Positions 43,101 to 63,133 of a DNA stretch of 64,000 nucleotides are shown one piece after another. Below the pieces are notes generated by a model that was not told where the DNA came from, searched no databases, and saw only the letters and a list, made by a program, of their open reading frames with translations. Every line of letters begins with the position of its first letter. Positions within the stretch are counted from its first letter, which is position 1. Source of the DNA: a virus. A program made the position numbers and the translations under genes. The stretch lies in the IMG/VR virus record IMGVR_UViG_3300028837_004134, positions 19,417-83,416 of that record. One strand, 5' to 3'.

Positions 43101-43531
43101 GTCAGTGCAGCTTGGACACGCAGCTCCAGACTCCGAGCAGCTTCAGCTTCCGCCATTTGCTCCGGAGACAACCCATAGCTGGATAACGAGGGAAGACCCG
43201 CCTTGGCGGCCAGGAAATCGCGGGCACCTTGGTGACTCTCCGGCATGGGACCGGATTGACCCCGCGTTACGACACCAGAATGGATGAACTCCACCAAATG
43301 CAGCACATCGCCGCCCACGCCGCAGCCGAAACAGTACCATCCCTGCTTGTCCAGCATGACATGAAGCGACCGGTGAGACTGGCTCTTGTGGTTCGGGCAA
43401 TCGCATTGGAGCAGACGGTCGGATTCATGCAGGACGCGAGCGCCGAGCAGTTCCCTGGCGATTCCGCCGATATCCACCTCGGTAATCCGCCGGTAATAGT
43501 CCTTCACGTTGTTGGGCTGCTCCGATGCCAT
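40199..43531 (-). CDS. Phage primase-helicase
   Basis: This 1110-aa replication protein starts with a CHC2-type zinc finger (Cys45, His48, Cys67, Cys70 in CDCPNH...WYCFGCGVGGD) and has a TOPRIM-like domain near residues 290-370 (RLIITEGVTDCISLMEHG, then ICQDNE in place of the usual DxD). A P-loop ATPase follows (FEGPAGSGKTT near 763, LIVLDNIE as Walker B). It should prime and unwind element DNA. The ATG at 43531 has GGAG 5 nt upstream. A sigma-type promoter precedes it and an iteron array follows, consistent with an autonomous replication unit. Confidence 0.8.
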   Translation of the reverse strand: MASEQPNNVKDYYRRITEVDIGGIARELLGARVLHESDRLLQCDCPNHKSQSHRSLHVMLDKQGWYCFGCGVGGDVLHLVEFIHSGVVTRGQSGPMPESHQGARDFLAAKAGLPSLSSYGLSPEQMAEAEAARSLELRVQAALTELASFYHQRLKEAPEVFQWLHSQYGITDETIENMLIGYADNNGDTESRVGVIATLTNKKHGFSLRELSATGAFRPTGQDGLFPFFEKRIVFPYWSRGRVVFMIGRKTPWTPDRNWEHGKYKKLPVHNDSSNKHIAPCINNGYLFNEDCLLANPERLIITEGVTDCISLMEHGFVAVSPVTVRIRGADWERLLPRLRSVKTVYICQDNEISQAGLHGALKTASVLAGHKIQTRLVVLPLDEHRENARQELKERFGLDTALGPRDLTQRLDGRSEKEIKEAEELLAAAKIDVNDFFAAGHTAADFEGLIAEAKMPLEFGISRLPADVSEEERNRSLGPVLREVAQLVPLEQNRHLKLIQEHFGKSNLSLAILRDQIRVLQKERRAQTKQEKKREKRTPSAPAGSCRARIEQIMFETEEESGSPDYPRVAEAAYDWFAANGARFFRTPQGEPFMFFEDAIFWMDTSDRGRKRLYSSVIYKHTGLVQTTGGGRTFYEVLANLAVERGQVRDHFSWLHTDVARNTIYFNLNNTDHEIVRITADEIEVLKNGGNADGIILDGSRKMAPIRFLPDADPDEADRLLVGLILDNMTCAPGERSLILSWLSCFLLIDFAGTRPMTRFEGPAGSGKTTASKLISALLYGEPQQKKSTDAANYTDGSQNPLIVLDNIEVKQMTEDLTTFILTSITGIAKEKRKSGTDTETVIERTKCLLNTTGIEPLGGELAEILSRSFIIRFEMDEQASDCFLEAKILAAIREHRDLIVSAMMKRTCQVLAMLRDGAQEKVMRLLHRTLGNHGKRRCNDYLSLMYLMMLAGELPEVIDQALDELHPQFLDRIASLNSVSMETARESNPIATCLAALFKAYRHALEADLECTTVNVAKTNKAAFLERYQIDFQDETTIKGALARDLFVAIKRLSKDFGLSFHMNSVQQFAQRFSNDLETIREVGFEITVNRSSHSVRRTATYDITFLI

Positions 43532-43571
43532 TTCGGCTCCGCCTTCACTGATTTCCACGCTGATTCATACT

Positions 43572-44205: not shown

Positions 44206-47187
44206 ATGAGGCTGACTCGTTCTCAGTTTTACGTGTTGCTGCTTGCGATTCTGACTGTGGCTGTTGGGGCCATGACCAACGTCGCCACAGGTCAGATGCC
44301 AACTTGGCTTCAGCCTTACCTGTGGCTATCGTGGCCCATTTTGGGCGTGCTTGTTGTCCTCTTCATTATTCTTAGTGTACACCAGATCCATCAAAAGGAA
44401 CCCGAGCCCCCGCACCCCTCCGAGCCAGAACCGCTAATCCGAGAGCGCAGAAACGAAAGGAGGGCGCTGCGCAACTACCTTGAGCAACTCATTGAAGAGC
44501 ACAAGTATTTTACTTTTCTTAGACGAGCGAAACCCCTTGATCTTGAGAGAATCTACATCGCCTTGAGGGTTGGAGAATACGTGCCACGGCAACTTCAACC
44601 AGATGAACCCATGCAGACTGTGTCGGGGAAATTGCCTTGCCAGCGCTCAGGCACAGTGGAGGTGCCTGAGGCGCTTCGGCTGCACCGTCGTTTGGCAGTG
44701 CTCGGTGAGCCAGGCGGCGGCAAGACGACGCTGCTAAAATATCTCGCCCTACGCGTCGCTAGGCGAGACCCTGCCTTAAGTGAGTACGCCCGTGAGAGAG
44801 TGTTCAACTGGCTCCCCCGTTTGGCAGATCGCATTCACGGGCGTTTAGCCATAGTAAATGTCGGTTGCGTCGTTGAGTTGTGTGGTCCTGTTGCCCTGGG
44901 TTTCTGGATCTGGGGGCTGTTCCATTCTCCGCATCCACTGTTCGCGGTGCTGTTAGGACTCGTTCTGCTCGTCATGCCGCTGCTTATTTTCCTCAGGGCC
45001 TCAAGAATTCTCACGGCGCTGAGCATTGGGCTGTTAATGTATTACTCTTTGGCAGGGCTTGTGCCGTTATTGGCCGTCGGGGCGATGGCGGTCCCCCTGA
45101 TAATGGCGTTCTATCCCTTCTGGATTCAGCCCCCTCTGGCAGTGCTGAAGTGGCTTCGAGAGCGTTCGACACGCTATCCGCTGCCATTGCATCTGACTCT
45201 GAATGACCTAGCCGAGAGTGATGAACTCCTAGAAGTGCACCTAACAAGGACGCTACTGGAAGCGGGGTTCGCTCGTCCCCAGCGGTTTCTCCAGCGAAAG
45301 TTGGATAGGGGAGAGTGCCTTATCCTCTTGGATGCTCTGGACGAAGTGGTGGACGAAGCGGCCTATCGCCGGGTCGCAAAGGAAATCAACCGCTTCGCCC
45401 TTGCCTATCACCGCAACCAGATTATCGTGACCTGTAGGATTGCCAGTTTTCGGGGTTTGCTTCAGGGCTTTCTTCAGTTAGAGGTGCAGGAGTTAAACGA
45501 GAAGCAGGTGGCACTCTTTACTAGGAACTGGTTCGCCGATAGCCCACCCGAGGAGCAGGAAACCAGAGTGGACGGACTGTTGCGCTGTCTGGGGCGCAGC
45601 CCTCGGATGCGGGTGCTGACGAGTAATCCTCTTCTCCTATCCATCATAGCCCTGCTCTACGAGAATAAACTCACCCTGCCCGAGAGGCGTGTGGAACTAT
45701 ACGAGGAGTGCGCGCAAGTCCTGCTGAAGGAATTAGAACGTCTGAAGGGACTGGATACCGAGGCGCGTTTTCCCCCAGAGAAGAAGAGGAGTACGCTTCA
45801 GTCTGTTGCCACCCACTTCCACGAAAAAGGTGTTCGCATCTTCACCGAAGAGGCGCTCCTGACTGCCCTTGCAGAGGTGCTGCCCAGCCTTGGTTATCCC
45901 GGCACGCACAAAAGGGAGTTCCTCAAGGAGATTATGGGGCGCAGCGGCTTGCTTAGGCAGAAGTCCCGAACCTCCTACGACTTCGCCCATCTGACTTTTC
46001 AGGAGTTTTTCACGGCCGCTGCCTTCAACGAGAAGGGAGATGCTGAGTCGCTTCTCACACATTTGAATGACCCCTGGTGGCGTGAGGTTATCTTGTTGTT
46101 CGTGGGGCTTCTGGGCGATGCCACTCAACTCCTTGAGAGGTTGAAAAGGCACGACGTCCTGCTGGGGGCTGCTGCCCTTGCCGATGCCCGCCCTGTGCAT
46201 ACAGAGCCCTTTGAGAGGGTTGCTGGCAAGATTATCGCTGAGCTAACGCACTTAATGGAGGAGGATTCACAGCGCTGCCAAGAGGCTGCCGATGCCCTTG
46301 CCGAAATAGCCCGATGGGGCGCGACTGAATATCTGGTTCAGAAAGTACGTGCCGAGGGACAGCCGCCCATCGCGCTGGCAGCCGTTATAGGACTAACACG
46401 GGCAGCGGATAGAGAAGTGCTCGACCATCTTTTAGACCCACTGGGACCCATCCTGCGCCTGCTTAATGGCAGTCTGGGGCGATTCAATGCTGCGATGGAC
46501 GAGCGCATCCTGTTACCCTTAGAGACCATTGATTTCCCTATGATCTTTGTTTCAGCAGGAGAGTTCTTGATAGACTTCCAAGCATCCAATAAGCGACAGG
46601 TACATTTGGATGATTACTGGATTGATAAGTATCCAGTAACCAATGCCCAGTTTCAGCGGTTTGTGAGCGAGTCAGGTTATCAAGCACAAGGGGACTGGCG
46701 AAAAGCGTCCATCCCAGGCAAGGAAAATCATCCGGTCGTCAATGTGAGCTGGCATGATGCTGTCGCATTCTGCAAGTGGGCAGGCAAGAGCCTTCCGACC
46801 GAGGCACAGTGGGAGAAGGCTGCTCATGGCACCGATGGTCGACACTACCCATGGGGAAATCAAGAGGATAGAACCCGATGCAACTTGTCGTTGCGGGGCA
46901 CGACCCCAGTTGATCAGTATCCTAGCGGCGTTAGCCCCTGCGGGTGCCACGATATAGAAGGTAATGTCCGGGAATGGTGTGCTATGAATTCTTACCATTA
47001 CTCGTCTGATTCCGACCGTGCCGGACCTACCCAAGAGACAAAGCGTGTGTTGCGTAGTGGGTCGTGGGACTACAGGCGCGAGGCGGCTTTATGCCCCACC
47101 CTCTATGCGCGGGCAGACCCTGAGACTTGGAACCGTGATTGGGGTTTTCGGTGTGCAGTGTCGCATGTTCCTCAGGCAGGAAGTTGA
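44206..47187 (+). CDS. Membrane NACHT NTPase with C-terminal FGE-sulfatase domain
   Basis: This 993-aa protein has two N-terminal transmembrane helices (about 8-28 and 38-58), a charged linker, and a NACHT NTPase with Walker A GEPGGGKTTLLKYL (167-180) and Walker B LILLDALDEV (372-381). Between these motifs about 90 hydrophobic residues (213-306) form three to five likely transmembrane helices, a very unusual insertion. Winged-helix and helical regions follow (SYDFAHLTFQEFFTAAAF), then an FGE/SUMF1-like domain from about 780 (MIFVSAGEFLIDF...YPVTNAQFQRFV...VSWHDAVAFCKWAGKSLPTEAQWEKAA...GNVREWC). NACHT proteins are ATP-driven sensors in antiviral immunity, and FGE-like domains here often serve as sensor or carbohydrate-binding modules. 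A defence role is inferred from this and the mobile context. It is a lone plus-strand gene. Confidence 0.8.
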   Translation: MRLTRSQFYVLLLAILTVAVGAMTNVATGQMPTWLQPYLWLSWPILGVLVVLFIILSVHQIHQKEPEPPHPSEPEPLIRERRNERRALRNYLEQLIEEHKYFTFLRRAKPLDLERIYIALRVGEYVPRQLQPDEPMQTVSGKLPCQRSGTVEVPEALRLHRRLAVLGEPGGGKTTLLKYLALRVARRDPALSEYARERVFNWLPRLADRIHGRLAIVNVGCVVELCGPVALGFWIWGLFHSPHPLFAVLLGLVLLVMPLLIFLRASRILTALSIGLLMYYSLAGLVPLLAVGAMAVPLIMAFYPFWIQPPLAVLKWLRERSTRYPLPLHLTLNDLAESDELLEVHLTRTLLEAGFARPQRFLQRKLDRGECLILLDALDEVVDEAAYRRVAKEINRFALAYHRNQIIVTCRIASFRGLLQGFLQLEVQELNEKQVALFTRNWFADSPPEEQETRVDGLLRCLGRSPRMRVLTSNPLLLSIIALLYENKLTLPERRVELYEECAQVLLKELERLKGLDTEARFPPEKKRSTLQSVATHFHEKGVRIFTEEALLTALAEVLPSLGYPGTHKREFLKEIMGRSGLLRQKSRTSYDFAHLTFQEFFTAAAFNEKGDAESLLTHLNDPWWREVILLFVGLLGDATQLLERLKRHDVLLGAAALADARPVHTEPFERVAGKIIAELTHLMEEDSQRCQEAADALAEIARWGATEYLVQKVRAEGQPPIALAAVIGLTRAADREVLDHLLDPLGPILRLLNGSLGRFNAAMDERILLPLETIDFPMIFVSAGEFLIDFQASNKRQVHLDDYWIDKYPVTNAQFQRFVSESGYQAQGDWRKASIPGKENHPVVNVSWHDAVAFCKWAGKSLPTEAQWEKAAHGTDGRHYPWGNQEDRTRCNLSLRGTTPVDQYPSGVSPCGCHDIEGNVREWCAMNSYHYSSDSDRAGPTQETKRVLRSGSWDYRREAALCPTLYARADPETWNRDWGFRCAVSHVPQAGS

Positions 47188-47236: not shown

Positions 47237-49426
47237 CTACCATCTCGCTCCAGCCGGTTCGAGGAGCAGCGAGAGGAACGTCTTTCGTTCATCCTGTTTC
47301 CGCTTTCTGGCACAGTTCTGTATACCCCATTGATCGCCAATGACCACGGCGGTCTTCTTGGCCCGGGTGACACCGGTGTAAAGCAGGTTGCGGTGGTGCA
47401 TGAAGGCATGGGCCTTGTGGATCATCACCACGGCGCAGGGAAACTCTGAGCCCTGGGCCTTGTGTATCGTGAGCGCGTAAGCCAACTGCAAGTCCTGCAT
47501 GTTCGGCGAGCCCGATTCGATATCTACCGGCACGCCATCGAATTCGATGGCAATTGAACCGTCGCGGTCTATACGGATCACATTACCCATCGCGCCGTTC
47601 ATCACGCCGAGATCGTAATTGTTCCGGGTTTGGATCACCTTGTCGTGGAGCAGGAACTTCGGTCTTCGGCCCGGTTTCGGAACCGGTGCTTCAATGTCCC
47701 AGAGCTTCTTTTGGATCAATCGCTGAAGTTCTGTGTTGAGCGTTTTGGTCCCGAGCGGTCCTTTGTGGGTCGGTGTCAATACCTGGACGTCTTCTCGAAG
47801 GTCGTAACTCAGCCGTTCATTAAGTACATTTTCGAACAGCTCGAGGAGGAAGCGTTGCGCGTCCGTCTGGTCTGTGAACTGATCCACCACGTACCACGCC
47901 CGGCGGCCCGGGCCTTCTGGCTCGCTGGTCTTTCGCACCTCGCCATTCAGAATCGCGATGCTGTTTTCCTTGAGTACGCCGGCTTGCCTGACAACTTTGT
48001 CGAGAATGACCGCCGGCGCAACTCGCGATTGGACGAGGTCCCGCAGCAGGTTGCCGGGGCCTATCGGAGGGAGCTGGTTGTGGTCGCCGACCAGGACGAC
48101 AGCGGTTTTGTCCAGATTGATCGCTTGGAACAGACGCCAAGCCAAGGGGATGTCCACCATGGAGACCTCGTCAACGATAATGACATCGGCGTCGATAGGG
48201 TCTTCGGGACCTCGCGCGTACGTCTTGCCGTTGAATCCCAGGAGTCGGTGGATGGTGCTCGCGGAATATCCGACGACCTGTTCAAGTCGCTTGGCCGCCT
48301 TTCCTGTCGGGGCTGCCAGGACCACTCGAAGCTCGTGTTCCTCGAATATGTTCGTTACGGCTGAAACGGTGAAGGTCTTGCCGCTGCCGGCACCGCCGGA
48401 AACGAGGGAGATTGAGTGTCGCAACACTGTGAGCGCTGCTTCCCGCTGACCGTTGTTCAGTTGGGGAGCAGTCTTCTGCACCAGGGATTCGAGATCGTAG
48501 GTGTTGCTGAAATGAGGATTAGGTCGAGGAGCCTGCCGAAACAGAGCCGCCAAGTTCTCCTCCATCCTGCGGATGTCCGGTCTGGCGACAAAGAATCGTC
48601 CATCGTGTGCGGAGCAAGAAAGAGTGTCTTCATCGATGAGCTTACTCAATGCTTCTTCGATCCGGTCGCGGCGGTCAAGGACGTCCATGACAAGCAACGT
48701 GTTGGCCTGATCGATCAGCTCCTCGAACTCGATCCAGCAATCGCCTTGCTCCAGCGCCGTCGACACGCAATGGATGATGCCGGCGCGGATGCGGGCCGGG
48801 TCATCCTTAGCCGTTCCCATCTTGCGGGCAATCTTGTCAACCCGTTTAAACCCGAAACCGCGCACCTCGCGGACGATGATGTATGGGTCGGTCTTGAGCA
48901 GACTCAGTGCGTCATTGCCGAACTTCTTGACCAGCGTCGTCACCTGGTGATGTGTGAGCCCGTAAGCGGCCGGCCATGTGATTGCCTTGTTCGTCCGCCG
49001 CGTCTTGAGCCATTCCGCTCGGAGATTCTGTACGGCTTGGGCCGGCAACTTTGCAGCCTCGGCGATTCGTTCCGGCTCATCGGTGATTATCCGGTCGAAG
49101 TCGTGCCCGAAGTGTTCGGCGATAAGGCGCGCCTTGACCGGTCCGATGCTCCTTATTTCCGGGTGATTGGCCAGGTAGTTTGCCAGGCCGTCGGTATCCA
49201 GTTCGAGGTCATACTCCATGGCCTTGACATCGAACTGGCGACCGTACTTGGGATGCGTGGACCAACGTCCGTTTAGTACGACCTGGTCCTGCTCGCGGGC
49301 GTAGAGCCTGCCAGCGAATTGAATCTCGTCACCAGAAGGTGTTACCAGCCGACCCGCTGAGAACCGTGGGCCCGCATAGAAGACTGCATTGATCCGTCCC
49401 CGAATTGTCGTTTGAGCGTGCTTCAA
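47237..49426 (-). CDS. recD2: RecD2-like helicase
   Basis: This superfamily 1B helicase has tandem helix-hairpin-helix motifs (LANYLANHPEIRSIGPVKARLIAEHFG, YGLTHHQVTTLVKKFG), the P-loop GGAGSGKTFTV near residue 342, Walker B VIIVDEVSM and the C-terminal motif VI region (LAYALTIHKAQGSEFPCAV...LLYTGVTRAKK). It unwinds DNA 5' to 3' in repair or replication. The frame can be extended to 49720, but a predicted element promoter lies inside that extension. I therefore prefer the in-frame TTG at 49426 preceded by GAGAGGCGG, giving 729 aa, close to the usual size. Confidence 0.8.
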   Translation of the reverse strand: MKHAQTTIRGRINAVFYAGPRFSAGRLVTPSGDEIQFAGRLYAREQDQVVLNGRWSTHPKYGRQFDVKAMEYDLELDTDGLANYLANHPEIRSIGPVKARLIAEHFGHDFDRIITDEPERIAEAAKLPAQAVQNLRAEWLKTRRTNKAITWPAAYGLTHHQVTTLVKKFGNDALSLLKTDPYIIVREVRGFGFKRVDKIARKMGTAKDDPARIRAGIIHCVSTALEQGDCWIEFEELIDQANTLLVMDVLDRRDRIEEALSKLIDEDTLSCSAHDGRFFVARPDIRRMEENLAALFRQAPRPNPHFSNTYDLESLVQKTAPQLNNGQREAALTVLRHSISLVSGGAGSGKTFTVSAVTNIFEEHELRVVLAAPTGKAAKRLEQVVGYSASTIHRLLGFNGKTYARGPEDPIDADVIIVDEVSMVDIPLAWRLFQAINLDKTAVVLVGDHNQLPPIGPGNLLRDLVQSRVAPAVILDKVVRQAGVLKENSIAILNGEVRKTSEPEGPGRRAWYVVDQFTDQTDAQRFLLELFENVLNERLSYDLREDVQVLTPTHKGPLGTKTLNTELQRLIQKKLWDIEAPVPKPGRRPKFLLHDKVIQTRNNYDLGVMNGAMGNVIRIDRDGSIAIEFDGVPVDIESGSPNMQDLQLAYALTIHKAQGSEFPCAVVMIHKAHAFMHHRNLLYTGVTRAKKTAVVIGDQWGIQNCARKRKQDERKTFLSLLLEPAGARW

Positions 49427-49490
49427 ATAACCGCCTCTCAGCAAATCGCACAGCACAGCGCGACTCCGTGCCCATCCTTCAGTGTTCACA

Positions 49491-49515
49491 TACCGGAATG
49501 ATTTGCGGACTGTCG
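49491..49515 (-). promoter_or_regulatory. Putative element sigma promoter, site 6 (RecD2-like helicase)
   Basis: In the minus direction CGACA, 13 nt, then TTCCGGTATGTG. It lies about 60 nt upstream of the preferred TTG start and inside the apparent N-terminal extension. Confidence 0.5.
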
Positions 49516-50016
49516 GAAGGCTAGTCGGTTGGGAGAATTGGAATTGGCTTTGACTTTGAGGGACTCGAGAAGTTATATTGTTCTGAGAGAATGTGGCACG
49601 GGAATTGGAGGAGGAGTTTTGTGCCGATTCGCGTAAGACCCCATGGTGAATTGGGGGATGGAACGAAAGTGTCTGAGTGTGCATGCGTTGGCTTGCTTCT
49701 GAAGCGTTGTCGAACGGCATGTTGTGTCAGCGGGAAATGTGGGTTCTGCGTCTCATTCGGATCAATGTAGTGGTTATCGGGCTCCAGAATGGGCGCCGAA
49801 TGAACACGGTGAATGAGAGTTAACCAGGCAAAGCGTTTTGTGTATTAATGGAACAAAGAGAATCCACCTTAAATCAGCCGCAAGACTGTCCAACAAACCG
49901 GGACCACGTCTCGTGAGGATAGGAGAAACCTGACTAACGCCTTCAGCCAACCCTACAGTTGAGGCTGGAGGTGGACGGAGGTTGCTGACCACAGACCTAT
50001 GGACTTGGAGTGATCT

Positions 50017-53000
50017 ATGGAGGACGCTACAATTCTCCTTGCAGACCTTGTGGGGAGTGAGCAAGCCACTTTGAAGCGGATAGACGACGTCTTGCAGGAA
50101 TGCGGCGCATTGCCTTCGGGCGAACGATACAAGAACAGTTGGGGAGATGCCCTAGTTGCCGTGTTTGAGTCTGCATCCCAGGCACTAGACTACGCTCTCA
50201 CTATTCGAGACCGATTGCGGCAGCACGATTGGCGCCAATTGGGTATCTGTCGGCCGCCCTCAGTACGAATGGGTCTCGCCTCGGGCCCCTTGACGTGGAG
50301 ACCTGACTCCCTCCGCGACTGCCATGTGCCGGAAGGAGGGGCCTTGGTCTTAGCTGCCAGGATAGAGCCAACTGCGAGCCCAGGTGCTGTCACAGTGACC
50401 GAGACAGTCAAGGGACTCGCTGGCGAAACTGACTATTCGTACTTCGATCTCGGACAGCGTAAACTGCCCAAGCAATCTGGAACGATAAGCCTTTTCAGCG
50501 CATCTCATAGAGGAGAAGGCTTCAGTGTGGATAATCTACCTGGCTACCCACTCCAGGATGAGCAGTATTACCGTCGCCTTGAGGCGTTCCAGCGCTTCGT
50601 TTATATGTGGCTGATGTTTGACCAACTCCCTCGGGGGAGCTGGGGTCGTTCAACTCCGGGCTGGATGAACGCAGTATGGCAGGACGTACCTCATATCGTA
50701 CCGAACCCAGTGATGGATCACGAGGGCGGATTTGAAACGACAATCTTTAATCTGGAGATCCTTAGCAGGCTTCTAGGACCTGAGCGTCTCTATCAAATGC
50801 AAGGATCCAGAGCCTTCCAATACCTCCGAGAACGACATACTCCCCGGGGTTTCGGGACCCTCAGCCTTTCACGCAACGGCTATGCCGTGGAGCCTCACCC
50901 GCGCCATACGGCCCTGGTTGGATGGCTCATTGGAACCGTTCTAGGCCAGGTCGGCCATGATGTTCCGGAACTCCGCGAGTTGTTTCAGACTAGCGTCGCA
51001 GCGCTGTTCCTGGAGGCGCCCGGTGGCAGGCCCACCGCTTTGCATCTGGATCGAAACCCTCTGCTGCTATACCTGTGTGCGTGGCATGTAACCCGGGCTA
51101 TTGAGACCGCACTTTGGGAAGGTTGTTTCACGCCTGAGCAGCGCTCTCACGTGTGCGACGCATGGGAGGGGATGCGCTCGGCACTGCTTGACAGGGCATT
51201 AACCGGCCAGTATTCACGACCGGAACCTTCCCAACTACCAAGAGGTCGTTTGTCTCTGTTCCCGCTCACGATTCCGTACGGGCAATTCGTCAGGATGGAG
51301 GCCTACTCGTTGCTAACGGCAGCTCCTCTTTTGCATCAGACAATGCCAGCGAATCTCCTAGATCGCGTGCGAAAGGCAATCGAGTTCATAGTTGAAGATT
51401 ACCTATCGACTTGGTCGAAGGCGATTCGATGTGCTCACAAGGACGCGCTCCAGCCCATACATGCGAGCCCCAGTGCGTTCCTCTCAGATGACGGGAATCC
51501 CCATCCAGACCTGGGTATAGCTGCATTGCTGCTTCGTACGCTGAGGGATGCGAACCTATGTGCCTGTTTGTGGAACGATGCGCCGGCCGAAAAGGTGCTC
51601 ATCGCGCGACAGCATCTGATCGAGGATCTAACCCTACTGTTTGATCGATGGCTCGTTGCACCAGAGCTCTTTGACCTAACCCATCCAGGCATGCTTGCCT
51701 CTGCGCTTGTGCATGATCACCCAGATCTGCATGAGAAACTGATTAGCAGTTGCCGGCAGGCCGTTACGCCCCACCCTCCAACACGTCTCGCAGACAACTC
51801 CATTGAAGCAGTTCTGTCCGAACACAGGATTGCGAGAGCCATACGTGAAGTCGTTGCGAGTGACGGACTGAGTCCTGCCATTCAGATCTCTGAGTACTCC
51901 CTGCAGCGCCTCCTCTTAGATAGGTTGCGCCCAGGATTATACGTCGAGGAGCGGCTTGGCACCAATGGCACAATGACCGTGGCGCGCAAGACTCTGGACG
52001 TATATCAGAGGGCATCGTTTGTGCGAAGGTACAAGCACGTCTGGGAAGACAGGGCAGATCGGACTACTCTCGCACTCTTCATGAGCCTATTGCCTTCCGC
52101 TGGATGCATACTGGATGTCGGTTGTGGTGTGGGACAATACGCGGCTGAGATGGTCCGCGATGGTCATCGAGTGGATCTTCTCGATGGTTCTTCTCCTCTG
52201 CTGTCGATTGCGCGTGATCGAGTACGAGCTGCTTCTGGGGCTAGCTTCGAGTGTTTTAATGTAGACATCCTAAATGAAACCTCGCGAAGTCACGTGCCGG
52301 CGTCGCCTAAATACGATGCCATCTGGTGCAGTGGTACCCTTGCACACGTTCCACAAAACGTACAGAAAACGGTGCTGCTGTGGCTAAAGGACCTAGTCAA
52401 GGATGGCGGAAAGTTGTTCCTCAGTACACCCATACGGGATTCACGGGTTATTGCACGTGACGGTCGGTTCTATGCATACATCGAGTCAACTGATCGGCTA
52501 CGAGAACTGGCAGTCGAGAGTGGATTTCGCGTTGACTACGCACTTGAGAAGGAGGAGTTCACCAACACATACGGTGAACCGAAACTCACTTCCAAGTGGG
52601 CCAACCTCTACTGCACCAAGAAGGCGGTTGAGGCAGCGGGAGGTCGCGCTGAGCTTGAAGTCGCGCTGACGCGCCAAGCATATGGTCAGTCTGCTTCCGA
52701 TTTCTTTGAAGTGCACGTCAGGCGTGCAGGGGACTCAAGGCGTCAGCGAGTCCTGGACTCTTACATAGACAAGACGTTGTCTCTGATTCCATCAGTGAAG
52801 AGGCCGACGATTCTCGATGCTGGTTGTGGTGCAGGTGACTATCTCTTCGAAATGGCTCGGCGCGGTTGCTCAGTAGTTGGCATAGACCTAGCTGAGGAAA
52901 TGCTTGAGTTGGCGAACGAGCGATGTGCAGAATCGATTGAGAAAGGGGATGTAGAATTACGTATGCGAGACATCCGTAACTTGCCGAATGAATGGGATGG

Positions 53001-53328
53001 GAGGTTTCAGGGCGTTCTGTGCGTCACAGCATTTCAGCATATCCCGTTGGCCAAAGATTCAGCTTTGGACGTTCTACGTGGCTTTCACAGGGTTCTGGTG
53101 CCGAGAGGAGTATTGCTCGTGGATGCACAGCTAGGTCGGGGAACGGGATTCGATCCAGATCTCCGGTTCATTCAAGGGTACGAAACACCAGGCCAACTGG
53201 AGGAGGTTTTGAAGCAGGGCGGGTTCCAGGTTATCGAGATGCCCAGATGGTCGCTAAAACGTGCCCACAATACTTACCAACGAGATACTCGTCTTGACTT
53301 TGTGCAGGCCTGGGCGAGGCGTGCTTGA
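50017..53328 (+). CDS. Nucleotide-cyclase-like domain fused to a helical domain and two methyltransferases
   Basis: This 1103-aa protein is a rare fusion. Residues 1-165 match class III nucleotide cyclases: Asp10 in LLADLVGSE and Asp44 in WGDALVAVF could bind the metals, and Lys39 sits where adenine-specifying lysine is expected. Residues about 170-620 are helical and Trp/His-rich and resemble alpha/alpha-barrel enzymes, but I cannot name the family. Two class I SAM methyltransferase domains follow, motif I LDVGCGVGQ near 699 and LDAGCGAGD near 931, each with an acidic loop (VDLLDGS, VVGIDLAEE). GGAG precedes the ATG. It is a single plus-strand passenger. It could make or sense a signal and methylate a product. 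Confidence 0.7.
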   Translation: MEDATILLADLVGSEQATLKRIDDVLQECGALPSGERYKNSWGDALVAVFESASQALDYALTIRDRLRQHDWRQLGICRPPSVRMGLASGPLTWRPDSLRDCHVPEGGALVLAARIEPTASPGAVTVTETVKGLAGETDYSYFDLGQRKLPKQSGTISLFSASHRGEGFSVDNLPGYPLQDEQYYRRLEAFQRFVYMWLMFDQLPRGSWGRSTPGWMNAVWQDVPHIVPNPVMDHEGGFETTIFNLEILSRLLGPERLYQMQGSRAFQYLRERHTPRGFGTLSLSRNGYAVEPHPRHTALVGWLIGTVLGQVGHDVPELRELFQTSVAALFLEAPGGRPTALHLDRNPLLLYLCAWHVTRAIETALWEGCFTPEQRSHVCDAWEGMRSALLDRALTGQYSRPEPSQLPRGRLSLFPLTIPYGQFVRMEAYSLLTAAPLLHQTMPANLLDRVRKAIEFIVEDYLSTWSKAIRCAHKDALQPIHASPSAFLSDDGNPHPDLGIAALLLRTLRDANLCACLWNDAPAEKVLIARQHLIEDLTLLFDRWLVAPELFDLTHPGMLASALVHDHPDLHEKLISSCRQAVTPHPPTRLADNSIEAVLSEHRIARAIREVVASDGLSPAIQISEYSLQRLLLDRLRPGLYVEERLGTNGTMTVARKTLDVYQRASFVRRYKHVWEDRADRTTLALFMSLLPSAGCILDVGCGVGQYAAEMVRDGHRVDLLDGSSPLLSIARDRVRAASGASFECFNVDILNETSRSHVPASPKYDAIWCSGTLAHVPQNVQKTVLLWLKDLVKDGGKLFLSTPIRDSRVIARDGRFYAYIESTDRLRELAVESGFRVDYALEKEEFTNTYGEPKLTSKWANLYCTKKAVEAAGGRAELEVALTRQAYGQSASDFFEVHVRRAGDSRRQRVLDSYIDKTLSLIPSVKRPTILDAGCGAGDYLFEMARRGCSVVGIDLAEEMLELANERCAESIEKGDVELRMRDIRNLPNEWDGRFQGVLCVTAFQHIPLAKDSALDVLRGFHRVLVPRGVLLVDAQLGRGTGFDPDLRFIQGYETPGQLEEVLKQGGFQVIEMPRWSLKRAHNTYQRDTRLDFVQAWARRA

Positions 53329-53799: not shown

Positions 53800-54297
53800 T
53801 TAACTGGGCTCTTTTTTCGAGAGGCAATTAGCCGCGGCTGACGAGAGGTGTCTGCTCCGCTGACATCCTATCAAATAGCCCTCCATAAACCGACAGGCAG
53901 CCTGCCGGTCGGAGCAGAAGAAGACCGGAATGTCGAAGTCGACGACGATGGAAAGAACGGTTCCGAGAACGGCGTTGGGGTGCGCACCAGAACGGTAACG
54001 TCCGCCGAGGATGTCGCTGAGGTTGGCCTCAACCACAATGCATGCGGCCTCATACCCGGCAAGACGCTGAAGCTCCTTCTTGAACCGTTTCCGGGAACGG
54101 ATGACGGTGGAAACGAAGTCCTCGAGGGTCTTGCGCTCCACCGCCACCGAGTCCTCGCGTCCCTCGATGGAATAGTCCCCGGCGGGGAGAGCCTGGCGGA
54201 TGACCGCCACGCATTGGGGATCGAAGGCGTAAGGCTCCTGTTCCCGCGTGTCGACGACGACGGTGATCCGGTCCTCGTCAGAACGGCGCGAGAGCAT
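53800..54297 (-). CDS. ERCC4-family nuclease
   Basis: This 165-aa protein has the XPF/ERCC4 nuclease signature: VVVDTREQEPYAF with Asp16, then GDY (Asp41), then VERKTLEDF (Glu54, Arg55, Lys56). Phage versions cut branched or flap DNA in recombination and replication. The ATG at 54297 overlaps the end of the DUF669-like gene by 20 nt. It takes the place of nothing visible in element 1, which ends earlier. Confidence 0.8.
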   Translation of the reverse strand: MLSRRSDEDRITVVVDTREQEPYAFDPQCVAVIRQALPAGDYSIEGREDSVAVERKTLEDFVSTVIRSRKRFKKELQRLAGYEAACIVVEANLSDILGGRYRSGAHPNAVLGTVLSIVVDFDIPVFFCSDRQAACRFMEGYLIGCQRSRHLSSAAANCLSKKEPS

Positions 54298-54772
54298 CTT
54301 TAGCCGCCGTATCGTATTCGTCCCCGCTGTCTTCAAGCACGATGCGCCGGTTGAAGTAGACGTTTTCGTTTTCGCCCCGGGTGCGCTTGGTCACCTCGAT
54401 CTTGACGTTGAGCAACTTGTCCAGGTTGTCGGGAAGCTCGGAGAGCTTTTCGAGATCGAGCCCGCAGGTGTGCAGGTCCGTCTTGAGCCACTTGATGTTC
54501 TCGCGGGTGGCCATCACGTTGTTGCGCCACAGGAGCCTTCCCCGGAACCGTGGCGCAAGAATGCGCAGTGTCCACTTGAGCATTGGATTGCCCGAGGTCT
54601 GCGCCCGGGTCAGTTCCACTCGCTCGACGTTCACCTGGTACTTGCCGTCGGGAATCGGTTCGAACTCCCGATCTTCGACTTCAGCTTACGCGAAATCGTC
54701 GTCGAACTGCGCAAGGTCGATCTCGTTAGTACCGCGAGGTTTACCGAGATACTCATCGCTTTCATACGGCAA
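54278..54772 (-). pseudogene. DUF669-like phage gene with an in-frame stop
   Basis: A TTG at 54772 with GGAGG 8 nt upstream opens a frame (PYESDEYLGKPRGTNEIDLAQFDDDFA) that hits TAA at 54686-54688. The same frame then continues with EDREFEPIPDGKYQVNVERVELTRAQTSGNPMLKW...NVKIEVTKRTRG, the DUF669 core. DUF669 proteins accompany phage recombination systems. One base change (GAA to TAA) explains the break. Translation might restart at the ATG at 54634. Confidence 0.6.
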
Positions 54773-54800
54773 GCTCTACTCCTCCATCTAAGGAGTTTAC

Positions 54801-55127
54801 TTACTCGCAGGCACGGGCTTCTTCTTCTGTCCATCCCCCGGCACCGACCGCACGACCCTCTCCGATCCGTTCGACCTTGAATGCCTCTTCACCGAACTCA
54901 CGGGAGAGGAACCCGGTGAAAATCCTGGCGATAGCGCGTCCGACATCGGTCGCCGCGTCCACCACGCAGGAGCGCTTTTTCGAGTCCAGGCAGAAGGACG
55001 CATCAAGGCGCATCAGGGAGCGACCGTGCAGGCTTTCGGCGGCAAGTACCGCCAGTAGCAGGGATTCCTCGACGTCCTGGATCGGGACCTTGGAATCGAA
55101 GTTGTATCGGTAGAGTTCTCGCTTCAT
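54801..55127 (-). CDS. Conserved element protein of unknown function (copy 2)
   Basis: This 108-aa counterpart of 4820-5134 starts at an ATG with GGAGG 8 nt upstream. Nearly all substitutions are mild through ...GEEAFKVER. The C-terminal 15 residues (VGAGGWTEEEARACE) differ completely, as if the downstream recombination module was swapped right after the conserved core. Confidence 0.7.
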   Translation of the reverse strand: MKRELYRYNFDSKVPIQDVEESLLLAVLAAESLHGRSLMRLDASFCLDSKKRSCVVDAATDVGRAIARIFTGFLSREFGEEAFKVERIGEGRAVGAGGWTEEEARACE

Positions 55128-55228
55128 GATCTATGCCTCCATTCCGTTTAGTGCGGTCCGTTGGAGGGCGCGCCCGGGCCGGATGTCGTTGGGGCTTCTC
55201 AAACGCCTCGCTGGCATCCGACCCGGTC

Positions 55229-55259
55229 AATACCTACCGGAAGCGACCCTGGACCGTCG
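55229..55259 (-). promoter_or_regulatory. Putative element sigma promoter, site 7
   Basis: In the minus direction CGACG, 13 nt, then TTCCGGTAGGTATT; same place as site 1, about 100 nt upstream of 55127. Confidence 0.6.
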
Positions 55260-55264
55260 GACGG

Positions 55265-55852
55265 TCAGAGGTAGTCCCTCAGTCCGGCGTCCTCAAAGAT
55301 CGCGCGCAGCTTCTTGATGGATTCGTAGATCGTGCCCCGCGGAGTTCCGGTGTCGCGGGAAATCTCCGTGACGGTGTCGGTATCGAGACGCTTGCACAGC
55401 TCACGCAGCTCGGGCGGCAGTTTCTCAATTGTTTTCTGCACGTCAAGGGAAAGATCTCGCAACTCCCACGCGGGTCGTGCGAGCTTACCGGTGCGGCGCA
55501 GGTAATCTTCCTGGTCGATGGTCTCCATGCGTTCCACAGAGCCGCCTTCTTCGTCATCGAACCGGTCGTTCAGGGAGCACCGGCAGCGGCGATAGTCCCG
55601 CATGCCGGCTTTCTGTGATTCGATAATGGTGGCGATCTTGTGTTCTACCACACGGGCGATGAAGGTATTGCGCTGTGCACGCTTGGGATTGAATTTGGGC
55701 AGTCGGCGAAGCAGGTCCAGCAGCATTTCCTGCTCCAGGTCCTCGCGGTCGGACTCTGTGAATCCAACCCGTCCAACTAATTGCCTCGCCTTGTACTTGA
55801 TGAGTCGAACGGCATACTCGTCGACTGCTTCGGGGTGATTGTCGAAACCCAT
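55265..55852 (-). CDS. Element-encoded small sigma factor (copy 2)
   Basis: This 195-aa partner of 5267-5851 keeps region 2 (DREDLEQEMLLDLLRRLPKFNP) and region 4 (IEKLPPELRELCKRL...EISRDTGTPRGTIYESIKKL). The recognition helix differs only slightly between copies, which predicts overlapping promoter specificity, and the motif is indeed the same in both elements. It starts at an ATG with GGAGG upstream and a structured leader. In this element it has at least five candidate target promoters. Confidence 0.8.
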   Translation of the reverse strand: MGFDNHPEAVDEYAVRLIKYKARQLVGRVGFTESDREDLEQEMLLDLLRRLPKFNPKRAQRNTFIARVVEHKIATIIESQKAGMRDYRRCRCSLNDRFDDEEGGSVERMETIDQEDYLRRTGKLARPAWELRDLSLDVQKTIEKLPPELRELCKRLDTDTVTEISRDTGTPRGTIYESIKKLRAIFEDAGLRDYL

Positions 55853-55861
55853 CTGGACCTC

Positions 55862-55971
55862 CTCGTGGCCGAGGGGGCGTGGGTGCCGACGGAAGATGTG
55901 GCTACTATGAGAAGAGGCGTTGCAGGCTCACCGCATCTGCGGCACCCACAACGCCTCCACTTCGTGGCCGG
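55862..55971 (-). promoter_or_regulatory. Conserved structured leader of the sigma gene (copy 2)
   Basis: The arms GTGGGTGCC (55879-55887) and GGCACCCAC (55941-55949) are kept, as is the CCGC/GCGG competitor hairpin, here with loop ATCT. Confidence 0.5.
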
Positions 55972-56026
55972 TTAGTTGTCAGGTAGCGAAAAGCTTTGTT
56001 TACGATTGGGGAGCCGATCCCCGCTC

Positions 56027-56365
56027 TCAGGCAGTGTTCTCCTCAACGATCATCTTGAAAGGAAGGCCGCGCTTGACTTCAAGAGAGTGGATTACTCCGT
56101 TACCCAATGCTCCAACTTGCGTGAAGAAGTCGCGTACTTGAGCCTTGAGCAGAAAGTCCTGTTTGGTGGCCTCTGGTCGCGGACCGTTTTCCGCGCAGAA
56201 CTTAATCTCCCGGACCACCCGCGGCCGCGGATCAAGAACCAACTCGCCGTTCCGGATGACGATCCCTTCGATGCGACCGAAATTGATGTGTTGCATCATC
56301 TCTATGAACTCCATCTTCGGTTGCGAGAGGGAAGACTTCGTAGCGTTACGTCTGGTCTCCTGCAT
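56027..56365 (-). CDS. Conserved element protein of unknown function (copy 2)
   Basis: This 112-aa counterpart of 6027-6365 has exactly the same length. Differences cluster in the N-terminal 30 residues (MQETRRNATKSSLSQPKMEFIEMMQ). GAAGGAG precedes the ATG. Retention of length and core in a decaying element suggests selection, but no function is visible. Confidence 0.7.
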   Translation of the reverse strand: MQETRRNATKSSLSQPKMEFIEMMQHINFGRIEGIVIRNGELVLDPRPRVVREIKFCAENGPRPEATKQDFLLKAQVRDFFTQVGALGNGVIHSLEVKRGLPFKMIVEENTA

Positions 56366-56556
56366 GTCACTCCTTCGATATGAGGGTGGTCACAAGAGCG
56401 ACGCACTGTGCGCCAGCTCGCTGCCCTTCGGAGCAATTGCAGGAAATGATTGCAGGGGGTGTGGAGGTGTCCGTAACCTCGTCAGCGAAAAGAACTACGG
56501 CGTGTGAATGTGGGAATTGCAGTTGCAGGAAACCATGCAAACTGCAATGTGGAAGG

Positions 56557-57540
56557 TTATCCCTTGAAGCTCATGACTTGTTCAAGATCGTTGGCTGCTT
56601 CCCAGAGAATGCGGATCTCCGTGTCGGAAGGATCGTTAATCGCTCTGGATATGGAAGACACGCTGACACCCAATTGAGCTGCAAGTTGCTTCTGGGTTGG
56701 TCGAGGCAGCAGGGCGGGACCAGTCCCGTGATCGCGCGAACTGTAAGCATAATCGCGCGCTGCCCGGAGGTGCTCTCTTAGTGCCTTCTTAATAGCGTCA
56801 ATGATAGCGGTGCGTGGGGCACGCTTCATGCGTTTCCTCCTGGCCGGTTTGCAAGTAGGTCGATCTCCATGTGCCTCCGCCTTACCGAGTGCTGTCTTGT
56901 GTCTCTTGCGGAGTTCATCCAGGCGCTTCACGACCTTCTGACCGGGAATGAGCTTCTTCCTGATCTCGTCATACTCATTGGGTGGTATGGCAGGCAAGTC
57001 TGATACATCGAGAGTGAGAAGAGCTGACTCACGAAGCCTCTCTTCGGTCTCATCCCCAAAAAGAGTAATATCGGGCCTGATGATAACACACGGTACGGAC
57101 AAAACCTGATCACTGTCGATATCCTTACGATTAGGGTAGGAAATCACATGCCTCTCTACAATTGTTGCAGGCAGTACTGGTGAATACTCGGCAACACGAG
57201 GGTAAGACGAGAGAGCCTCCACGATGGCGCACGCTGGACAGGCGCCGATCAGGGTGTTCAACTCAGGTAGATGCGCCAGTGCCTCGTGTAGATCTCTTTG
57301 TACGTCGTTCCATCGCTTCTCCCTCTTTCGCTTAGAGGCAGTCCTTTGTTGAAACAGGGATAACTTGACGCAATCGCGGAACTCGCTGCACGAGAACCCT
57401 ATGCAGTGATACTCGCAGAAGACCGCTGCTAGATCCTTCAGGCGCTTCCAAGCCCATTTCGCTGCCGCGCGATGGTCCGAACACTCTCTGACACCAGACT
57501 CGAAATGGGTTATGGTGAGACCATCGTTTGTCTTGATCAT
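56557..57540 (-). CDS. Element protein with C-terminal helix-turn-helix (copy 2)
   Basis: This 327-aa counterpart of 6558-7541 has identical length. The HTH (PTQKQLAAQLGVSVSSISRAI) and the GACPACAIVEAL patch are conserved. The first 25 residues and the basic linker differ. It now follows a LexA remnant rather than a working lexA, so its function does not depend on that repressor. Confidence 0.65.
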   Translation of the reverse strand: MIKTNDGLTITHFESGVRECSDHRAAAKWAWKRLKDLAAVFCEYHCIGFSCSEFRDCVKLSLFQQRTASKRKREKRWNDVQRDLHEALAHLPELNTLIGACPACAIVEALSSYPRVAEYSPVLPATIVERHVISYPNRKDIDSDQVLSVPCVIIRPDITLFGDETEERLRESALLTLDVSDLPAIPPNEYDEIRKKLIPGQKVVKRLDELRKRHKTALGKAEAHGDRPTCKPARRKRMKRAPRTAIIDAIKKALREHLRAARDYAYSSRDHGTGPALLPRPTQKQLAAQLGVSVSSISRAINDPSDTEIRILWEAANDLEQVMSFKG

Positions 57541-57556
57541 CTTCGTCCTGCCTCAA

Positions 57557-57790
57557 TCACATTTGTCGCCTCACTGCGACGATCTTCCTAGGGACTCGAT
57601 GTCCGTCGTCGGGTCCATGCGGGATCGGTCCGTGATCTGGAATCCCCGGCCTTGGTGCGATTATCTCGTCACGGATGTAGAGCCGCTTCACTGCTGCCTC
57701 ATCGCCGAGCGATGCCACTACAACGCCTTTGCTTTCGGCCACTGGCAACCGGCGGACTACTACTCTGTCGCAAAACCAGCTCGGGATTGA
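57557..57790 (-). pseudogene. LexA C-terminal remnant
   Basis: VVVRRLPVAES...VVVASLGDEAAVKRLYIRDE...IPHGPDDG aligns with the last 70 residues of the LexA protein of element 1 and keeps the catalytic lysine region. The DNA-binding domain, cleavage site and serine are gone. An ATG at 57811 with GAGGAG nearby may still express a short protein. It marks the right edge of a module replacement. Confidence 0.65.
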
Positions 57791-57877
57791 ACTGTTGAGC
57801 CATCGTTTCATTCTCCTCTGCTAGCTGTAATCAATGGCCTAAACACTAAACGTCTAGGCCAAAAAAGAGAAACCAAC

Positions 57878-58174
57878 TTATGACCGCCGCCGCTTGGTCT
57901 TTGCCAGATTCGTTACGGTGACGTTCATGTTCTTCCGCCGGGCGCGTTCCACTGCCAGATCCATATCCGGTTGCGGGACTCGCAATATCTTCTGTTTGTT
58001 AGTCTGCGTCGCCAATCGAGACAGTGCCTTATCAATCTTTGTCGGAGTACCTCCGCGTTCGACTTCGATGGCGGTGTTCCCACGAATCGCATCAAGTCTG
58101 CGCCCACCGGAGATCGGCACTTCCTTTCGCGCGGCCTTTCCTTTGCCCTGTTTGTGTGATCTGCTTTCTGACAT
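57878..58174 (-). CDS. Small basic protein of unknown function in the immunity module
   Basis: This 98-aa protein starts at an ATG with GGAGG 8 nt upstream. It is rich in Lys and Arg, with the central patch GGRRLDAIRGNTAIEVERGG and the C-terminal NVTVTNLAKTKRR. The spacing of D and E-V-E might recall a tiny PD-(D/E)XK fold, but this is weak. It follows the ImmA-like protease gene and is absent from element 1. Confidence 0.55.
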   Translation of the reverse strand: MSESRSHKQGKGKAARKEVPISGGRRLDAIRGNTAIEVERGGTPTKIDKALSRLATQTNKQKILRVPQPDMDLAVERARRKNMNVTVTNLAKTKRRRS

Positions 58175-58201
58175 GACAATGTCCTCCTATAACCGTTGAG
58201 G

Positions 58202-58903
58202 TTAAGTGGTAAAGAGACTAGGCCCCGGCTGCTCGGTTTTAATCAGCTCGAGCCCGATCAAACGTATTTGCATAGCCTGCCCGGAAAGGTTGAATTCGCG
58301 GGCGAGCTCACGCGCGATTTCTACTGTCGGGCGTTCATCCTCCGCCAATCCCCACTTCGCCGAAAGGTCAGCCATCTCTTCCTCTGCGACATAAGGAGTC
58401 CTGCTGCCAAACTGTGACTCCCATGCCTGGAACACCATGTCCTTTGGCATTAACAGGAAACCGGCGAACGTGTCTGCCTGCCACTCAATCGGTTCCTTGC
58501 GAGAGCAGGTCCGACACACAACTGACGGTTCTTCTCGTTTGCCAAATAACGAAGTCTGGTCTTGGTTTTCCATGAAAAGGTGCCGGTGCAACTCCCAATG
58601 TCCAACTTCATGTGCGACCGTAAAGCGGTAGCGTCCCTCTTTTGTCGGATTGTCAGTGGGATCGAGTGACTGGTCAATTAGCACACGTCGGTCCTGGACC
58701 CACGTAGCGCCAAGCACATCCGAGAGGCCGAGCTGCTTGGCCAGATCGTCAAAACCCAGGCTAAGTTCCAGGTGTGCTTCAAGGATTTCCTCGACCGGGA
58801 TGGGCGGCCTCTCAACGACACCGTATTCCTGGCCATACTCGCCAAGCAGGCGCAGGCTTGCACCTTCGATTTTGTCTATGGGCAAAAACCTGACCCTAGT
58901 CAT
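58202..58903 (-). CDS. immA: ImmA/IrrE-type metallopeptidase of element 2
   Basis: This 233-aa protease has the zinc motif HEVGH at 98-102 (FTVAHEVGHWELH). A second CxxC pair (VVCRTCSRK) is followed by EWQADTFAGFLLMP, where the third metal ligand lies. In ICEBs1-like elements ImmA cleaves the XRE repressor to induce excision. The XRE gene lies 14 nt upstream, so the same switch is inferred here, replacing the LexA self-cleavage of element 1. Confidence 0.8.
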   Translation of the reverse strand: MTRVRFLPIDKIEGASLRLLGEYGQEYGVVERPPIPVEEILEAHLELSLGFDDLAKQLGLSDVLGATWVQDRRVLIDQSLDPTDNPTKEGRYRFTVAHEVGHWELHRHLFMENQDQTSLFGKREEPSVVCRTCSRKEPIEWQADTFAGFLLMPKDMVFQAWESQFGSRTPYVAEEEMADLSAKWGLAEDERPTVEIARELAREFNLSGQAMQIRLIGLELIKTEQPGPSLFTT

Positions 58904-58917
58904 TACCGCCTCACGTA

Positions 58918-59283
58918 CTACTTCTTTTTCTTCTTCTGTGCCTGCTTCGCAAGCTCGCGAAGCTGTTTGTCGGACATTACCTGCGTACTTCTGAGCAAAT
59001 CCGGTAGCACGGAGGGTCTCCTGCGGATAATCTCGCTCAGCTCAGGATCAACCCGCCCCGCAAGTGCGAGTAATTCGTCCGCGTCCACACCGAGGAGTTC
59101 AGCCATTTTCTTGATCTTCTCCGGCCTCGGCGGGTCGAACTCACCGCGCTCAACCTTGCTCAGAAACGTCGGACTGATGCCAACGGCATCGGCGAACTTC
59201 CTCAATGTGAAAGTCGAGTCTGTTTTGAGCTTCGCTTCTCGAAGTTCTCGGAGATGATCGCCAAATTTCTTGTTTCCTGCCAT
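58918..59283 (-). CDS. XRE-family repressor of element 2
   Basis: This 121-aa protein has an HTH at residues about 8-65 (FGDHLRELREAKLKTDSTFTLRKFADAVGISPTFLSKVERGEF, read as consecutive pieces) and a C-terminal helical tail ending in poly-lysine. It is the probable target of the downstream ImmA protease. The ATG at 59283 is chosen because GAGAG precedes it; the longer frame upstream has no site. Confidence 0.75.
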   Translation of the reverse strand: MAGNKKFGDHLRELREAKLKTDSTFTLRKFADAVGISPTFLSKVERGEFDPPRPEKIKKMAELLGVDADELLALAGRVDPELSEIIRRRPSVLPDLLRSTQVMSDKQLRELAKQAQKKKKK

Positions 59284-59302
59284 GACCGCACTCTCCGTTT
59301 GA

Positions 59303-59671
59303 TTAGCTTCCAATGCCAAGCAAGGGCAATCCCATGGGCGTTGCCGCGTCAAGGATCAAGTGGCTGACATAGGCCGCCGATGCCACTACCGTCGCCATCT
59401 TCTGCTTAGGAGTCATCTGCGTCGACTCCAGGGCTCTGTTGTTTGCGTACGCAATCCCCATCAGCAGAGCGACGCTATGAAAAGGACCTCGGTGATTAGG
59501 GGACAAAGCTGGTTCAAGGACGTCGGCGCTGATCCCGATAGCAGCTCCAAATCCCAATGCGGCGGTTGCTCCTCCCAGAGTCCATTCCTCATTCTGGAAC
59601 CGCTTTACCAAGCCGTACACGGCCAGCCCGGCAAGTGCTCCAGCTGCGGCGTGTGTACTACTATTCGCCAA
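59303..59671 (-). CDS. YdjM/DUF457-like membrane metal-dependent hydrolase
   Basis: This 122-aa membrane protein has several hydrophobic segments and the conserved polar set of the YdjM family: ADVLEPALSPNHRGPFHS with Asp and His residues, and later YVSHLILDAATPMGLPLLG. The family is an inner-membrane hydrolase of unknown substrate. The TTG at 59671 has AAGGAGA 7 nt upstream. A strong sigma-70 promoter lies 55-80 nt before it and probably also drives the XRE and ImmA genes. Confidence 0.7.
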   Translation of the reverse strand: MANSSTHAAAGALAGLAVYGLVKRFQNEEWTLGGATAALGFGAAIGISADVLEPALSPNHRGPFHSVALLMGIAYANNRALESTQMTPKQKMATVVASAAYVSHLILDAATPMGLPLLGIGS

Positions 59672-59724
59672 TACTGTTTCTCCTTCACATCGATACGCCA
59701 ACTGGCGCCATGTATTTTGTGGAC

Positions 59725-59753
59725 TTTATACTAAACACCAGAAGTCTTGTCAA
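59725..59753 (-). promoter_or_regulatory. Sigma-70 promoter of the immunity module
   Basis: On the minus strand TTGACA, exactly 17 nt, then TATAAA. This is a near-consensus housekeeping promoter, unlike the element-type promoters elsewhere. Confidence 0.65.
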
Positions 59754-59883
59754 CACGTTTTTCCGACAAAACACATTGGGAGATAGGTGATCGCGTAATC
59801 CATTGTGAATTGAGGGGTTACGGGTAGCCGTTCGACGAAATGACGGGTGTGCCGGGAAGCGGAGAGGCGTACAGTTAGACGAG

Positions 59884-60342
59884 CTATTGCTGAGACCGGG
59901 AGCGATCGAAGACCAGCTTTTCCCACTTCTTGCGCTGGCGGTGCCAGTGAGGGACGGCGGCGATGGGACGGACGTCTCTCTCCTTAATCGGATCACGGCC
60001 CGTGGTCGTCCGAGGGAGAAACAGGATTTCCTCTTGGATGTCCGGTGCGAGGTTCAAGAGACTCATGATTTGCGTGATGCGGGCACGTGTCACGTAACCC
60101 AGGCGGGCGAGATCGGCATAGTCACTCACCTCGTTGTTGCGGATCAGGCCGGCGAACCGAATCGCCAGTGCCATCAGTCTTGAGAGGCGAGGCACATTGC
60201 CGGCCTCGACCTTCCGCCTTTCAGAATCCGGCTCTAAGGCCCGTTTCACCCTGGACTGGTTCCCGCTCTTAGGTCGGAAGGTCCAGGTCACGTCCAGACC
60301 ATTGGAACCGGGATCGCTTTCTGTCAAGTCGTTATGTTTCAT
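59884..60342 (-). CDS. Recombinase-partner HTH protein (copy 2)
   Basis: This 152-aa counterpart of 8889-9338 has an HTH region almost unchanged (YADLARLGYVTRARITQIMS). The start overlaps the recombinase stop by ATGA as in element 1. Confidence 0.75.
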   Translation of the reverse strand: MKHNDLTESDPGSNGLDVTWTFRPKSGNQSRVKRALEPDSERRKVEAGNVPRLSRLMALAIRFAGLIRNNEVSDYADLARLGYVTRARITQIMSLLNLAPDIQEEILFLPRTTTGRDPIKERDVRPIAAVPHWHRQRKKWEKLVFDRSRSQQ

Positions 60343-62488: not shown

Positions 62489-62513
62489 ATTCAAACCTCC
62501 ATTCTTCGAAGCG

Positions 62514-63124: not shown

Positions 63125-63133
63125 CTGTAAATT

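Follow-up and report, generated by a model that had tools for sequence, protein, structure and literature searches.

A phage-borne fusion of a class III cyclase-homology domain, an orphan domain and two SAM methyltransferases lies in a likely defence cargo slot

Cyclase-based phage defences usually keep the signal maker and the effector apart. Pycsar pairs the PycC cyclase with a CNBD effector; P0001, the 1103-aa phage-encoded protein described here, resembles it in its class III cyclase fold and probable anti-phage setting but carries two additional methyltransferases, which Pycsar lacks. Rv1900c is an active adenylyl cyclase. Like P0001, non-canonical class III enzymes of the Rv1900c type have neither the Lys nor the Asn at the canonical positions while retaining the Asp pair and the Arg; unlike P0001, Rv1900c is fused to an alpha/beta-hydrolase rather than to methyltransferases, and it is not a defence protein. 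Kaur et al. (2020; PMC7159879) described cNMP cyclase domains in bacterial conflict systems, in which they serve as effectors or signal makers, and also found that some cyclase domains of conflict proteins are inactive and perhaps mere nucleotide binders. The TPR-S–class III cyclase proteins (PF20308 plus PF00211) share the N[ST]WGD motif and the paired metal Asp residues with P0001, at 30-38% identity. However, their TPR-S or other regions lie N-terminal to the cyclase domain, whereas the cyclase domain of P0001 begins at residue 1. UbiG/UbiE-like class I SAM methyltransferases have motif I and the Pfam families Methyltransf_25/11/12/23 in common with P0001, in which a tandem pair of such domains stands behind a cyclase domain.

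P0001 is encoded on an 83,416-bp IMG/VR virus contig, the final 64,000 bases of which constitute the window that we analysed; coordinates refer to this window unless another record is named. Its gene is present in a single copy in the record and occupies positions 50017..53328 (+), as judged from translation of the ORF, its opening after an in-frame stop and its GC3. The frame is closed upstream by an in-frame TGA (50011-50013) shortly before the ATG, and a GGAG sequence 6 nt ahead of the ATG (50007..50010, +) is a possible ribosome-binding site by consensus match. All 1103 codons are in one frame without an internal stop. Translation and domain searches agreed with an earlier note on this DNA that the ORF is intact and that its domains follow in the order cyclase homology, middle domain and two methyltransferases. 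The GC3 of the gene was 0.55 as compared with 0.65-0.73 in the phage core genes, in agreement with a separate origin of P0001. Because the record is metagenomic and a full-length relative was not found, we considered whether the ORF could be an accident, either a chimera of the assembly or unrelated genes joined in a degraded fusion. This is highly improbable, as the 1103 codons are open, the four parts are alike in codon-position GC (GC1 0.62-0.66 and GC3 0.52-0.58), and motif I is intact in both methyltransferases.

No homologue of the full P0001 architecture was found in the genome contigs, viral contigs, phages, plasmids and genome samples that were searched. Searches of the genome contigs with P0001 and its parts returned two cyclase-domain relatives only. 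Among phage records there was no match to the full protein or to residues 1-672, and the first methyltransferase matched generic methyltransferases; among plasmid records, P0001 and its parts matched only generic methyltransferases and distant cyclases. The viral-contig searches used exact peptide patterns, whose reach is limited to close relatives, and gave no match to P0001 or its parts. In the literature we found related conflict systems, but not a fusion of a cyclase, a middle domain and two methyltransferases. Thus, within the data searched, to which this statement is confined, P0001 stands alone in its architecture. We know of no described enzyme with this domain order.

Genomic context is the strongest evidence on P0001. 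The gene lies next to a RecD2-like helicase gene (47237..49720, −), a phage core gene that separates two cargo slots, and its own slot is bordered on the right by an ERCC4-type nuclease gene (53800..54336, −). The remainder of the conserved phage module follows at 54278..61946 (−) and encodes a DUF669 protein, a 108-aa protein, a sigma-like factor, an IrrE peptidase, an HTH protein and a serine integrase. On the other side of RecD2, the second slot extends to the phage DNA primase gene (40199..43558, −) and contains a gene for a 993-aa NACHT-FGE protein (44206..47187, +), which combines a STAND NTPase with an FGE-sulfatase/C-type-lectin domain. The earlier note had described P0001 as a lone passenger between phage genes; it is indeed inserted among phage genes, but it is not alone, given the NACHT-FGE cargo across RecD2. 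Both cargo genes run in the opposite direction to the phage operon.

A search with the primase yielded 47 related viral loci for gene-order comparison. The common order was integrase, sigma-like factor, 108-aa protein, DUF669, ERCC4 nuclease, RecD2 and primase. Where the gaps were measurable, ERCC4 and RecD2 were separated by ≤51 bp in 33 of 34 loci, and RecD2 and primase by ≤42 bp in 38 of 41. The corresponding ERCC4-RecD2 gap in the window is 4,080 bp and contains P0001. Genes in these slots were also seen among the loci most closely related to the window. In L060, the ERCC4|RecD2 slot holds a gene whose 464-aa product contains the caspase-like motifs YYSGHG and LLILDMCHS, a resemblance by motif only. 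Genes for SIR2_2, DeoRC, HNH and DnaJ proteins occupy the RecD2-primase interval of L016. In L017, SbcD/SMC-like (SbcCD-like) genes lie upstream of RecD2, while the RecD2-primase interval encodes a Type II DNA methylase together with a HEAT protein. All of these slot genes in L060, L016 and L017 are opposite in strand to the phage operon. The presence of conflict genes in the same or adjacent slots of relatives indicates that P0001 occupies a cargo hotspot. An insert in a conserved phage operon, together with defence genes in the slots of relatives, is the pattern of prophage defence cargo, and comparison of the loci supports the earlier suggestion well as far as defence cargo is concerned: P0001 interrupts an otherwise gapless operon, on the opposite strand, and the closest relatives carry defence-type genes there or in the adjacent slot. 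We also noted three features of related loci beside this pattern. The caspase-motif protein of L060 (5961-7355, −) matched nothing credibly in Pfam, PADLOC or PHROGs. A 345-aa ORF between RecD2 and primase in L049 (8949-9986, +) is on the operon strand, unlike the other cargo. Finally, RecD2 is split in frame by an insert of ~330 aa in L055 (6765-10016) and L062 (6644-9895); the insert starts with Cys, closes with IIVSNC and includes IGSLLGDGCMG, and probably represents an intein within the Walker B region.

A defence role for P0001 is likely, and its chemistry is speculative. Our best explanation, which we hold tentatively, is that P0001 is single-gene prophage defence (superinfection-exclusion) cargo in which a nucleotide-binding or nucleotide-cyclising domain controls two small-molecule methyltransferases. 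A phage-borne gene that joins a nucleotide-binding fold to methyltransferases could instead serve counter-defence, disarming a nucleotide-signalling defence of the host by binding or methylating its messenger; anti-CBASS and anti-Pycsar enzymes are known from phages (PMC9117128). However, the early/replication operon is encoded on the other strand from P0001, and relatives fill these slots with defence effectors, not with anti-defence genes. In addition, 1103 aa is a large size for an inhibitor. We regard counter-defence as quite unlikely. Because the slot-mates are conflict genes, both counter-defence and the metabolic role considered below become less likely.

The N-terminal domain (residues 1-165; 50017..50511, +) is assigned from sequence and a structural model. 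Although these residues alone gave no Pfam match, they share 30-38% identity with PF00211-bearing cyclase domains. An AF2 model built from a three-row alignment reached a pLDDT of 67 and a pTM of 0.68, and when this model was compared with the PDB by Foldseek the top 50 matches were all cyclases (best E 1.3e-6). Sequence relatives, model and fold search therefore agree on the class III cyclase fold that had been proposed. The roles of the canonical class III catalytic residues are established. In the family alignment the first metal Asp (D10) was invariant in 32 of 32 sequences, and the second (D44) was present in all 30 sequences that have a residue at this position. The earlier note had listed Asp10, Lys39 and Asp44 as kept. 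Both Asp residues are, but Lys39 is one residue off: alignment of VKTTGD of PDB 3mr7 with YKNSWGD of P0001 places Asn40 at the position of the canonical base-contact Lys (KxxGD). Similarly, in the NxxxR motif Arg115 is retained and the transition-state Asn is replaced by Val111. P0001 has replacements at half of the canonical catalytic residues.

Since the canonical Lys and Asn are replaced, the domain may not cyclise anything, and what had been called a signal-dependent cyclase could amount to nucleotide binding alone. The closest rival to our explanation differs from it in cyclase catalysis only: the domain would be catalytically dead, acting as a nucleotide-binding switch or dimerisation domain, and the methyltransferases would be the sole active part of the defence protein. 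Besides Asn40 and Val111, this reading is consistent with the drift of the Asn position among relatives with the N[ST]WGD motif, where the family alignment shows N, T, S, V or H, and with the inactive, perhaps nucleotide-binding cyclase domains of conflict proteins (Kaur et al., PMC7159879). On the other hand, both metal Asp residues and the Arg are retained, and alignment with the solved structure of the adenylyl cyclase Rv1900c (1ybt) places a His at the Asn position and a residue other than Lys at the Lys position. As Rv1900c has a His at the Asn position, P0001 may still be active as a cyclase, and we view a dead domain as a serious candidate that is nevertheless somewhat unlikely. By its predicted fold and metal site, P0001 is a class III cyclase homologue; because two defining catalytic residues are absent, it should not be named a nucleotide cyclase unless an assay supports the name.

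The nearest relatives of the cyclase domain are TPR-S-cyclase proteins. In most of the close relatives the cyclase domain is at the C-terminus of a protein of ~600-650 aa. Three relatives were scanned by Pfam for TPR-S, which was over the cut-off in one, weak in another and absent from the third. P0001 itself had no PF20308 match by Pfam, and we rejected its classification as a TPR-S-cyclase protein because it has no TPR-S domain N-terminal to the cyclase domain. In two relatives' loci that were read with long flanks (L002 and L003), inspection of translations showed that the cyclase-relative gene adjoins a TIR-domain gene; L002 further holds a caspase/FGE-like gene, and L003 a STAND-WD40-like gene. 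A fusion of the P0001 type was seen in none of the cyclase-domain relatives examined.

The C-terminal part of P0001 consists of two SAM methyltransferase domains, identified by Pfam and motif. The first spans residues 666-880 (52012..52656, +) with motif I, ILDVGCGVG, at 698, and the second spans residues 881-1103 (52657..53325, +) with motif I, ILDAGCGAG, at 932. They share 26% identity. Pfam placed two stretches of P0001 well over the cut-off (Methyltransf_25, 113.6 bits), so that the claim of two separate SAM-binding domains, both of class I with motif I intact, is well founded. Both scored below the cut-off of each NCBIfam model listed, and the solved and curated proteins nearest to them are UbiG/UbiE-type, sugar or antibiotic methyltransferases. 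A DNA amino-methyltransferase or R-M methylase was also considered. The [DNS]PP[YFW] motif is absent from P0001, which sets its methyltransferases apart from the usual DNA amino-methylases. PADLOC gave no cyclase-type profile match to P0001; its sole match was to the mad2 (MADS methylase) profile at residues 685-852 (E 3e-32). P0001 and mad2 have only the generic methyltransferase fold in common, as P0001 is without the DNA-methylase motif, and no other Mad protein was convincing among the proteins scanned. From the UbiG/UbiE-like rather than DNA-type character of both domains, modification of a nucleotide or small molecule by P0001 is plausible.

The region between the cyclase and methyltransferase domains (residues 171-665; 50527..52011, +) is an orphan, probably helical domain without a known family. 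Residues ~171-665 had no match among Pfam families, PDB sequences, or phage, plasmid or viral-contig records, or in genome samples of 399, 296 and 48, drawn without centring on the host phylum. The single-sequence AF2 model of the domain was of very low confidence (pLDDT 36). The earlier designation as a helical domain of unknown family is therefore upheld as to the family, while its helical character rests solely on this model. One QW-like motif, WLMFDQLPRGSW, occurs at residue 198; it arose in 6e-4 of shuffles, the motif having been picked after the fact, and it hints at a possible squalene-cyclase-like alpha-toroid. A self-repeat test of the domain was negative, and neither the Pfam Prenyltrans nor the SQHop cyclase profile matched it. 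A LanC-like cyclase was rejected as well, as both the LANC_like profile and the CHG zinc motif were missing. The region is best called an orphan domain on present sequence comparisons.

Together with methyltransferases that resemble small-molecule enzymes, the squalene-cyclase-like QW motif would suit a lysogenic-conversion or biosynthetic enzyme that makes or methylates a secondary metabolite of the host, apart from phage conflict. However, there is no biosynthetic cluster around P0001, none of the Prenyltrans, SQHop cyclase and LanC profiles matched, and the slot is otherwise occupied by conflict genes. Such an enzyme is an unlikely account of P0001.

We return to defence cargo in which a nucleotide event controls methylation. 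Besides the slot comparison, this explanation draws on the TIR genes next to two of the nearest cyclase-domain relatives, the part that cNMP cyclase domains play in conflict systems (PMC7159879), the GC3 difference from the core genes and the invariant metal Asp residues. From its position and orientation, P0001 would be transcribed on its own in lysogeny. The N-terminal cyclase-homology domains would pair in trans in class III fashion and, judging by the Asp pair and the Arg, would bind or cyclise a nucleotide upon infection by a competing phage. The orphan middle domain would couple this event to the C-terminal SAM methyltransferases, which would modify a small molecule or nucleotide, thereby producing a modified signal or disabling a metabolite that the infecting phage needs. 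The nature of the slot-mates suggests that the competing phage would be blocked as a result. The identity of the nucleotide, the occurrence of cyclisation and the methyl acceptor in this scheme are guesses. Against this explanation count the replaced Lys and Asn, the lack of a full-architecture homologue in the data searched and the PADLOC result, in which mad2 was the sole match. In addition, a search with PF00027 found no cyclic-nucleotide-binding (CNBD) effector in the 83,416-bp record, which is a fragment; the profile matched in 10 of 14 control genomes. P0001 was likewise rejected as a Pycsar system because an adjacent CNBD effector is missing from this fragment.

It is very unlikely, in our estimate, that P0001 first produces an immune signal and then methylates that signal, or that it joins nucleotide and SAM chemistry in one chain. 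If true, this would be a self-contained system based on a methylated nucleotide messenger or a SAM-nucleotide conjugate, of which we know no described counterpart. P0001 probably represents a new type of immune protein. As a cyclase-type domain, an orphan domain and two methyltransferases are encoded in one gene, the participation of methylation in nucleotide-linked immunity becomes directly testable, and the two adjacent cargo slots mark where this phage lineage may hold further defence genes.

Inspection of the remainder of the record revealed two related phage modules in the same orientation, with 76-89% DNA identity over long stretches (window 4866-12092 and 54859-63142; record 41-11511 and 50760-63054). 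Their primases are 87% and their integrases 86% identical, and by these comparisons the modules appear to be related prophages or elements in tandem. Between the primase and the early genes of the sister module, no alignment to a RecD2 or ERCC4 gene was obtained. That interval contains a gene for a 1185-aa metallophosphoesterase-NACHT-FGE protein (L004:12939-16496, +), whose NACHT-FGE part is 27% identical to the protein encoded at window 44206-47187 and whose N-terminal effector differs. Type I restriction-modification genes are present at 19450-30059 (−), with an insert between HsdS and HsdR that encodes DarT, DarG, a DUF4411 protein and an HTH/metalloprotease-like protein. A 907-aa protein with fibronectin III and Por_Secre_tail sorting domains is encoded at 12530-15253 (−) and may indicate that the host has type IX secretion. 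Internal direct repeats of up to 98% identity over 185-298 bp lie at 1423-3597 and 13912-14494, within large repetitive ORFs.
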